Source of the DNA: Opitutia bacterium
GTDB lineage: Bacteria > Verrucomicrobiota > Verrucomicrobiia > Opitutales > UBA953
Reading direction: 5' to 3'
DNA length: 64,000 bases
Assembly: GCA_947453335.1 (NCBI GenBank)
Contig: CANGFP010000001.1
Span: forward strand, 310,001 to 374,000
Part shown: positions 23,173 to 25,077 of the stretch, one piece after another
How positions within the stretch are numbered: position 1 is the first letter of the stretch
Layout of the letters: every line of letters begins with the position of its first letter
Notes under the pieces: generated by a model
Database searches by the model: none
What the model was told of the DNA's origin: nothing
What the model saw: only the letters and a program-made list of their open reading frames with translations
Made by a program: the position numbers and the translations under genes

Positions 23173-23787
23173 ATGGACGCCGTACGCTTCGACGTGGCGG
23201 CGCACCCCGGCGCCATGGCGTACAAGCTGCTCGCCGGCCTCGTCGTGCCGCGGCCCATCGCGCTGGTCACGACCGTCGACGCCGCGGGCCGCGTCAACGC
23301 CGCCCCGTTCTCGTTCTTCAACGTCATGGGCACCGAGCCGCCGCTGGCGGTCTTCGCGCCCGGCGACCGCGACGACGGCACGCCGAAGGACACGGCGGCT
23401 AACCTCCTGGTGACGGGCGAGTGCGTGATCCATCTGTGCGACGAACCCTTGGTCGACCGCATGATCGCCTGCGCCCGGGCGTTGCCGCCCGGCGAGGACG
23501 AGGCCGCCCGCGCGGGCTTGGCCACGCGTCCCGCCGAACGGGTGCGCCCGCCGATCCTGGCCGATTGCCCCGTCGCCCTCGAGTGCCGCGTGCTCGATGT
23601 CCGCCGGTACGGCGACAACCGCGTCGTCGTCGTCGAGATCCTGCTCGCGCATGTCCGCGCCGGCATCGCCGATCCGGCGACATGGCGCGTGGACTACGCG
23701 GCCTACGCGCCGCTGGGCCGCATGAACAGCCCCGACGGCTACGTCCGGACCGGCGACGTCTTCCGGCGCGCCTCCCCGCGGGACTAG
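23173..23787 (+). CDS. Flavin reductase-like FMN-binding protein
   Basis: A 204-residue cytoplasmic protein with the split-barrel flavin reductase fold. The N-terminal segment VVPRPIALVTTVDAAGRVN followed by APFSFFNVMGTEPP is the typical FMN-binding signature of the FlaRed family. NLLVTGECVIHLC follows. Such proteins bind FMN and reduce flavin or an attached partner; the physiological partner is unknown. The start is 2 bases after the lspA stop. It converges on the RluA-like gene; both stops are encoded within the same palindrome CTAG. Confidence 0.85.
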   Translation: MDAVRFDVAAHPGAMAYKLLAGLVVPRPIALVTTVDAAGRVNAAPFSFFNVMGTEPPLAVFAPGDRDDGTPKDTAANLLVTGECVIHLCDEPLVDRMIACARALPPGEDEAARAGLATRPAERVRPPILADCPVALECRVLDVRRYGDNRVVVVEILLAHVRAGIADPATWRVDYAAYAPLGRMNSPDGYVRTGDVFRRASPRD

Positions 23788-24584
23788 GCGGACTTCCCGA
23801 GCCGCTTCACCACCGTCGCGAAATCGTCGGGCAGCGGCGCCGTCAGGTCGACGGGGACGCCGCCCACGTTGCCTTGCAGGCGGCCCAGGTGCAGCAGCAG
23901 GCAGCGGTGCAGCGGCTTGTCCTCGCCCTTGTTGAGCCGGCCGCGGCGCGTGGTGTCGGTGAGCGTCACGCGGCCCGAGCGGGCGTACTGGAGCTCGCCG
24001 GCGATGCGGAGGCCGCACTCGTTGGCGTGGGCGCGGACCTGGTCGCGGCGGGGGAAGCGCGTCGTCGCCGTCCAGCGGCGCCAGCGGTTGAACGTCTCGC
24101 CGCCTTGGAAGGTCGTCTCGGCCTGCTTGCCGAGGCGATGCGAGATGAAGGCCCGGCCGCGTTCGTCGTCCATCCCGAGCGGCAGGTCGCAGAGCCCGCC
24201 TTCGGGCGGCGCGTCCTCGGTGCGCGCGATGAATTCGTAGGTGAAGCCCAGCTGGAACGAGCCGATCGCCTCGCGCCAGGCGGCCAGGGCCGTGGTGCGG
24301 TCGGCGAGGATGAGCAGACCCGAGACCTCCGGTTCGGGGCTGAAGGCCACGGCGGGTTCCTTGAGTCCGAGCCGCGCCATCTCGGGCTTGCCCAGCTGGA
24401 GCTGCAGGCGGAGTTCGCCGACGAGGTGGGCGGCGTTCTTCTGCCACGGGTGATCGTCGCCCGGCAGGTTCACCGGCTTGTTCAGCGCGACCCACCCGGG
24501 TCCGTGGGCGACGACCTCGAGGCGCACGGGGGCCTCGCCGAAGACGCCGGAGGGGAAGCCGATGGAGGAGGGGAACGCGGTCAT
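23784..24584 (-). CDS. RluA-family pseudouridine synthase-like protein with altered catalytic motif
   Basis: The 266-residue product has the RluA fold elements WVALNKPVNLPG near the N-terminus, SGLLILA at 88-94, and the RRDQVRAHANECGLRIAGE segment that corresponds to the RxHQIRxH motif. At the catalytic site, where the family has HRLDxxTSG, this protein reads F81-S-P-E84-P-E-V-S-G. The essential Asp is thus replaced by Glu84, and His and Arg are lost. Activity is doubtful; an RNA-binding or chaperone role is possible. It shares its CTAG stop with the flavin reductase gene and is upstream of nothing on the same strand. Confidence 0.8.
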   Translation of the reverse strand: MTAFPSSIGFPSGVFGEAPVRLEVVAHGPGWVALNKPVNLPGDDHPWQKNAAHLVGELRLQLQLGKPEMARLGLKEPAVAFSPEPEVSGLLILADRTTALAAWREAIGSFQLGFTYEFIARTEDAPPEGGLCDLPLGMDDERGRAFISHRLGKQAETTFQGGETFNRWRRWTATTRFPRRDQVRAHANECGLRIAGELQYARSGRVTLTDTTRRGRLNKGEDKPLHRCLLLHLGRLQGNVGGVPVDLTAPLPDDFATVVKRLGKSA

Positions 24585-24595
24585 CCTGATGAAAC

Positions 24596-24627
24596 AAAAA
24601 GACCCCGGCGTCTCAGACGGCGGGGTC
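24596..24627 (-). terminator. Terminator of rpsT
   Basis: GACCCCGGCGTCT (24601-24613) and AGACGGCGGGGTC (24615-24627) pair over 12 of 13 positions, with one G-G mismatch. On the minus strand it is followed by TTTTTG. It lies 25 bases after the rpsT stop at 24652. Confidence 0.8.
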
Positions 24628-24651: not shown

Positions 24652-24897
24652 TTACTTCTTGGCCGCGGCCAGCTTCTTCGCGAGGCGGGCCTTGATGCGG
24701 TTCGCCTTGTTGCGATGGATCACGCCCGACTTGACGGCCTTGTCGGCGGCGGAAGCCACGGCGGCAGGGTTGGCGGAGGCGGCGCCGGCGACGAAGCCCT
24801 TCACGAGGGTCTTCAGGCGGGTGCGGACGATCTTGTTGCGGGCGGCGCGAGCAGCGGTCTGGCGGATGCTCTTCTTGTTAGCTTTGATGTTGGCCAT
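24652..24897 (-). CDS. rpsT: 30S ribosomal protein S20
   Basis: S20 binds 16S rRNA in the body of the small subunit. The 81-residue basic, helical protein has the family hallmarks MANIKANKKSIRQTAARAAR at the start and GVIHRNKANRIKARLAKKL at the end. The length is normal. It is a single-gene unit, as usual for rpsT, with a strong terminator behind it. The upstream region, shared with tRNA-Tyr on the same strand, contains GCGTTGACT 65-70 bases before the ATG but no well-spaced -10 element. Confidence 0.96.
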   Translation of the reverse strand: MANIKANKKSIRQTAARAARNKIVRTRLKTLVKGFVAGAASANPAAVASAADKAVKSGVIHRNKANRIKARLAKKLAAAKK

Positions 24898-24990: not shown

Positions 24991-25077
24991 TGGTGGAAGG
25001 GGTGGGATTCGAACCCACGAACAGCGAAGCTGAACGGATTTACAGTCCGCGACCTTTAGCCACTTGGATACCCTTCC
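24991..25077 (-). tRNA. tRNA-Tyr (GUA)
   Basis: The 87-base gene reads GGAAGGG...CCCTTCC-A-CCA, giving a perfect 7-bp acceptor stem with encoded CCA. The anticodon loop CTGTAAA contains GTA, which is tyrosine. A long variable arm (pairs CAGC/GCTG with loop TTC) is present, as expected for bacterial tRNA-Tyr. The T-stem is GTGGG/CCCAC around TTCGAAT. A hairpin GACCCCG/CGGGGTC at 24954-24973 follows it but lacks a T-run. Confidence 0.97.

Follow-up and report, generated by a model that had tools for sequence, protein, structure and literature searches.

A gene of the RluA pseudouridine synthase fold, located next to the ribosomal protein gene rpsT, belongs to a branch of the RluA family that is degenerate and well supported and that, judged by its residues, looks like a pseudoenzyme. 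It lies at positions 23784–24584 on the minus strand of the window, a 64,000-nucleotide stretch of contig CANGFP010000001.1 from an Opitutia bacterium, and its conserved linkage to the gene for 30S ribosomal protein S20 suggests a ribosomal role. With moderate confidence, we favour a reading in which an RluA paralogue gave up pseudouridine synthesis in the ancestor of the clade and was kept as a putative RNA-binding protein in 30S assembly or S20 supply. The residues speak for a loss of catalysis, the fold suggests RNA binding, and gene order suggests the role in the ribosome. The rpsT linkage, which was absent from an earlier note on this DNA, offers the best hint of what the protein does.

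The open reading frame runs from an ATG at 24584 to a stop codon at 23784–23786 and encodes 266 amino acids (266 codons), with a charge near neutral (34 Lys and Arg against 30 Asp and Glu). According to the AlphaFold model (pLDDT 95.6, pTM 0.92, 46 sequences), the protein has the RluA-type catalytic-domain fold; Foldseek matched the model to RluA and RluC (E about 1e-15), and VIA-align superposed it on RluC (1xpi) over 222 residues with Z 25.0 and rmsd 2.4. TIGR00005 matched the protein alone at E 1.8e-7, with 30.8 bits against a cut-off of 192.7, and also matched all 36 members of alignment A1 (the window protein and 35 relatives). These matches, together with the predicted fold, exclude similarity by chance. 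A canonical RluA-type gene of the same genome, L001, was likewise under the TIGR00005 cut-off (146.3 bits), hence the cut-off is a weak criterion. PF00849 did not match the window protein alone in hmmscan against Pfam, gave it 10.4 bits against a cut-off of 26.8 in the genome search, and found 16 of the 36 A1 members.

The earlier note had described an RluA-like synthase in which the catalytic Asp was replaced by Glu84 and the His and Arg of HRLD were gone, and this was borne out by two alignments, one to the RluD structure 1prz by single-sequence phmmer (E 2.2e-4) and one to RluC (1xpi) by the A1 profile (E 3e-19). Both place E84 on the catalytic Asp, F81 on the His and S82 on the Arg, with the A1 profile aligning the segment column by column with HRLDRDTSG of RluC. 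The degenerate motif II, F81-SPEPEVS-G89 instead of HRLDxxTSG, is encoded at 24318–24344 on the minus strand. The KPVNLPG, SGLLILA and RRDQVRAHANECGL segments, which the note had listed as retained, are all present. Tyr116 (24237–24239, minus strand), which corresponds to the catalytic Tyr in KxY, is also present, and the Lys two residues ahead of it is Phe114. Motif III is retained as R179-RDQVRA-H186 (canonical RTHQIRVH; 24027–24050, minus strand), such that R179, Q182, R184 and H186 of GRTHQIRxH are kept and the Gly is replaced by Pro178. Sequencing error was rejected as a source of the degenerate motif, as eight relatives with 86–90% identity (L005–L012) read GPEPQVSG at the same place. 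The possibility that the catalytic Asp lies elsewhere in the protein was also rejected, no better acidic column being found in the clade alignment.

Relatives of the window protein fall on their own branch. In a quick tree with 50 canonical RluA-type rows, calculated with no bootstrap, all 67 clade rows were separated from the canonical ones by a branch with SH-aLRT 100, a result that was unchanged when the motif columns were dropped. L001, of the same superfamily and with intact SRLDRETSG and GRKHQIR, sits across this branch from the window protein. Seven duplicate loci and a fragment (L183) were left out ahead of the main alignment, start codons of the relatives were assigned by script guess, and the 145 clade rows were thinned to 91 sharing less than 90% identity, and for the tree to 67 sharing less than 72%. 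Motif was used to pick 21 of the 50 canonical rows, and motif counts use the remaining 29, which were labelled after viewing the motif table; the tree agrees with the labels. Eight of the 30 loci L214–L243 failed the motif pattern and hence were left out of the tree (five with an RLD motif, three with no pattern), as was L229.

The clade was seen here only in Verrucomicrobiota of Opitutales type. Matches at E <= 1e-5 were present in 75 of the 79 genomes of the window's family; across the phylum, 46 of 387 genomes matched at E <= 1e-8, and those better than 1e-12 all came from the same order. A profile search of 374 genomes of the phylum placed 51 at E <= 1e-27, comprising 29 clade genomes (E <= 2.2e-60), 10 of family f3 and 12 from outside the order. 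All 10 f3 genomes carry HRLD or HRID, and reading all 12 outside genomes revealed no further clade members; 10 have HRLD, one HHLD (G195), and one has an HRLD copy and an NELD copy (G370). Loss of the motif II Arg with Asp kept therefore also occurs outside the order. On named contigs, where a scan with one motif-III pattern kept 80 of 343 loci, clade proteins (L104–L162) were found in Opitutales, Puniceicoccaceae, Cerasicoccus (L135, L144 and L145), Coraliomargarita, Pelagicoccus and other Opitutia/Verrucomicrobia records. Profile matches in family f97 ranged from E 1e-30 to 1e-42. Families f84 and f98, with genomes of only 0.7–1.1 Mb, had clade-like matches at E 1e-38 to 1e-64. The genome from which the window comes, 1.13 Mb at 63% completeness, has three PF00849 matches, namely canonical L001, L002 (TruB by eye) and the window gene, a count that is a lower limit in a partial genome; in nine more complete genomes of the order, each has 4–9 PF00849 members (E <= 0.01, scoring clade members included).

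Directly upstream of the RluA-like gene, on the same strand, lies rpsT (24652–24897, minus strand), encoding the 81-amino-acid S20 (TIGR00029 E 1.6e-17, PF01649 E 1e-15). A tRNA-Tyr(GTA) gene (24991–25077, minus strand) is in turn directly upstream of rpsT, and the three may form one transcription unit. In a sample of 60 genomes of the order Opitutales, S20 was detected in all and the clade protein in 47. The gene adjoins rpsT in 45 of these 47, in 44 as the next gene downstream on the same strand and in one as a convergent neighbour; in the other two it lies 1.3 kb from rpsT (G472) or on another contig (G415). The 13 genomes with rpsT and no clade gene were 12 of family f3 and G460. Six of them match the clade profile weakly (E 5e-31 to 8e-26), and four of these matches read as HRLD (G096, G153, G166 and G177; the other two are G123 and G199). 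Among 91 non-redundant loci, 80 had rpsT as a same-strand neighbour, three were convergent and eight had no S20 in view, although the tblastn search for S20 used the window's copy as query and may overlook divergent ones. One of these eight, L021, starts 36 bases from its contig end. A separate S20 profile was built from a single sequence.

Gene order can be inherited without a joint function, and the protein could instead be a catalysis-free RNA-binding paralogue serving 23S rRNA, tRNA or mRNA and not the 30S subunit or S20, with the rpsT neighbourhood a stable inherited arrangement. The nearest solved relatives, RluC and RluD, are 23S enzymes, which is consistent with such a role, as are the separation from rpsT in G415 and G472 and the eight of 91 loci where S20 was unseen. 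However, rpsT and the clade gene have stayed neighbours in many families of the order, share a strand in 44 of 47 genomes and are kept in g5 as a convergent pair, hence we regard a role away from the 30S subunit as rather doubtful. A 30S or S20 role is the most likely one because the gene is inherited together with S20. Adjacency alone is no proof of joint function, and the 13 of 60 genomes with rpsT and no clade gene, as well as the convergent order in g5, also count against it.

Between rpsT and the RluA-like gene, an intrinsic-terminator-like hairpin (24601–24627) is followed by a T-rich tail (24592–24600); the whole element (24592–24627, minus strand) folds at -19.4 kcal/mol with its flank and ends 7 nt before the RluA-like ATG. 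A simple terminator scan did not list this hairpin, probably owing to its internal mismatch. A terminator-like hairpin with a T-run was detected in 71 of the 80 same-strand intergenic stretches, against 5 of 375 shuffled controls (made from the 75 stretches at least 20 bases long). In all four gene-less f3 loci read by eye, rpsT is likewise followed by a similar hairpin; it is therefore rpsT's own terminator and says little about the partner gene. The median distance from T-run to start codon was 15 nt in same-strand pairs, which in most of them leaves little room for a promoter of the gene's own, so that low expression by read-through of the rpsT terminator is plausible from the sequence. The post-rpsT stem-loops vary among families yet keep strong pairing. 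In a set of related loci (L092, L095, L097, L115, L127 and L142), a recurring stem-loop carries CCCTCG in its 5' arm, with GGGGG or GAGGG preceding a C/TATTTTGT tail.

Active-site positions were scored in the 91 clade rows and in the 29 canonical RluA rows. The base-flipping Arg of HRLD, Ser82 in the window protein, was present in one clade row and in all canonical rows; the Lys of KxY in none of the clade rows against 28 of 29; and the Gly that precedes the Arg of motif III in none against 29 of 29. The catalytic Tyr was retained in 38 of 91 rows (29 of 29 canonical), with Phe, His or Ile at the Tyr116 position in the other 53, and the Thr of TSG in 6 of 91 (29 of 29). Position 84 held Asp in 42 clade rows, Glu in 44 and neither in five, where all 29 canonical rows have Asp. 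Kept in the clade were the motif-I Lys (84 of 91), R179 (91), Q182 (90) and H186 (91), and W171 has become near-invariant (89 of 91). The clade thus shares with RluC, RluD and RluA (TIGR00005, PF00849) the fold, the KP of motif I, the Arg, Gln and His of motif III and the GK-T-F strand, but differs in lacking the motif II Arg, the Lys of KxY and the Gly ahead of the motif-III Arg, in an Asp that is not fixed, and in having SHxTGKKxxTxF and WxA signatures of its own. Column 197, the Asp of canonical GDxxY, is acidic in every clade row (Asp 41, Glu 50; E197 in the window protein) and Asp throughout the 29 canonical rows, which makes it the second invariant Asp to have become interchangeable with Glu in the clade.

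Read across the alignment, the clade-wide change is the loss of the flipping and catalytic set, and Glu at 84 is one interchangeable state. The His-Arg loss of the earlier note accordingly extends to the whole clade, but its Glu is only one of several states at 84: Glu is conserved in same-genus rows, whereas Asp and Glu interchange in the wider order. A clade defined by Glu was rejected on this interchange, in both the 91 rows and the 67-row tree. Parsimony on the 67-row tree required a minimum of 14 changes at Tyr116 and 12 Asp/Glu changes at 84, the latter a count from a single quick tree where support is below 80 on 47 of the 114 inner branches and misplaced rows may inflate the number. 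Asp84 and Tyr116 occur together in 12 clade rows.

Asp-to-Glu mutants of TruA are reportedly inactive. In published mutagenesis, Asp mutants of TruA, TruB, RluA and RsuA are described as without activity, RluB Arg108Ala as having 0.6% activity and RluB Tyr140Phe about 3%, and RluA with its Arg changed to Met or Lys as inactive (PMC3919597). Given that RluB and RluA lose activity when only the Arg is changed, and that the Asp is essential, synthase activity has likely been lost across the whole clade and its loss is not a property of Glu84.

The earlier note had also raised an enzyme with a changed mechanism, in which the Asp or Glu at 84 would still act and another residue would flip the base. 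An acid is indeed retained at 84 in 86 of 91 rows and the motif-III Arg in all 91, on a high-confidence predicted RluA fold; moreover, TruB enzymes are described as flipping the base with His instead of Arg (PMC3919597), and Arg-less motifs with Asp kept exist outside the clade (L244 and L263). However, columns 81–83 of the 91 clade rows show no conserved Arg or His that could stand in for the lost one, and no other acidic column is suitable, column 197 being the GDxxY Asp and E86 less conserved. The 12 Asp/Glu changes, the five rows with no acid, the Tyr lost in 53 of 91 and the inactivity of the published Arg and Asp mutants (PMC3919597) all point away from catalysis, and we consider a working synthase with an altered site unlikely.

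Purifying selection on the gene was strong, with a median dN/dS of 0.03 and a maximum of 0.12 (36 pairs among nine close relatives). Decay of a functionless gene, which could be read from the lost catalytic residues, the absence of the gene in 12 sampled f3 genomes and one internal stop each in the matches of G567 and G544 (families f84 and f98), is contradicted by this dN/dS of 0.03 and by the presence of a match in all but four of the 79 genomes from the window's family, the matches listed being nearly all near full length and free of internal stops, and is highly improbable.

The reading that we prefer, a pseudoenzyme serving the 30S subunit, carries forward the note's proposal of an RNA-binding paralogue without catalysis: the catalytic set is lost clade-wide, fold, motif III and purifying selection are kept, and RNA binding is suggested by the modelled fold. 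After the loss of pseudouridine synthesis, the protein would have been retained as an RNA binder holding structured RNA in the old cleft, of which the motif III side is kept. It would then act as a 16S rRNA/30S assembly factor or match S20 supply to assembly, and perhaps be produced in small amounts through read-through of the rpsT terminator. More tentatively, it is possible that this is an order-wide bacterial pseudoenzyme dedicated to S20 and the 30S subunit, which would clamp 16S rRNA during S20 loading, or bind the post-rpsT stem-loop and so control S20 output and its own read-through. Against a pseudoenzyme, the acid kept at 84 in 86 of 91 rows would be unneeded in a dead enzyme, the window protein retains Tyr116, loss of the motif II Arg is not unique to the clade (G195 and G370), and the near-neutral charge of the protein also speaks against an RNA binder. 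Whichever acid occupies position 84, it has probably been kept for a salt bridge to the invariant Arg179 and not as a nucleophile.

Inactive E. coli TruA and RluA still bind substrate, but the mutator effect of TruA and RluA in Pseudomonas putida is described as dependent on catalysis (PMC7822408), so binding roles are not a rule. The trypanosome mitoribosomal large-subunit assembly factor mt-LAF3 (6yxx, 7aoi) has an RluA-like fold (Z about 19) and is reported as an rRNA-linked factor that does not need its own catalytic function (PMC11469412). It differs in being mitochondrial, in belonging to the large subunit and in its length of about 370–410 residues; its likeness to the clade is one of fold, with no close sequence kinship shown. 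RsuA is comparable as a pseudouridine synthase favouring a 30S assembly intermediate stabilised by S17 (PMC7356742), but it is an active enzyme with an S4-like domain, and its fold matches only distantly (1ksk, Z 10.5).

Whether bacterial pseudouridine synthases are of value for the modification itself or for RNA handling is usually probed with engineered dead mutants. Here evolution appears to have run the dead-mutant experiment, discarding the chemistry while strong selection preserved the fold and the gene stayed linked to one for a ribosomal protein, and named Opitutales strains that carry the gene, such as Cerasicoccus, would make the question testable. A literature search, with most subscription journals outside its coverage, found no published work on Opitut- pseudouridine synthases, no title, among those listed, linking rpsT and a pseudouridine synthase in an operon, no report of a D60E mutant and, by title, no relevant paper on a protein lacking catalysis.

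Degenerate RluA copies were also observed beyond the clade. In G370, from another order of the class, an independently degenerate copy (L244, 2790–3593, plus strand) has NELD for HRLD with the Asp kept and is directly downstream of a 552-amino-acid open reading frame, SurA-like by eye. The tree with L244 added places it outside the rpsT clade, with a support of 91 for the branch that encloses only the canonical rows. In G195, of the same phylum, an RluA-type copy (L263) has HHLD for HRLD, keeps the Asp and TGRHHQIR, and lacks W171. Within the window, a flavin-reductase-like gene (PF01613; 23170–23787, plus strand) is convergent with the RluA-like gene, and the stop codons of the two overlap at 23784–23787.
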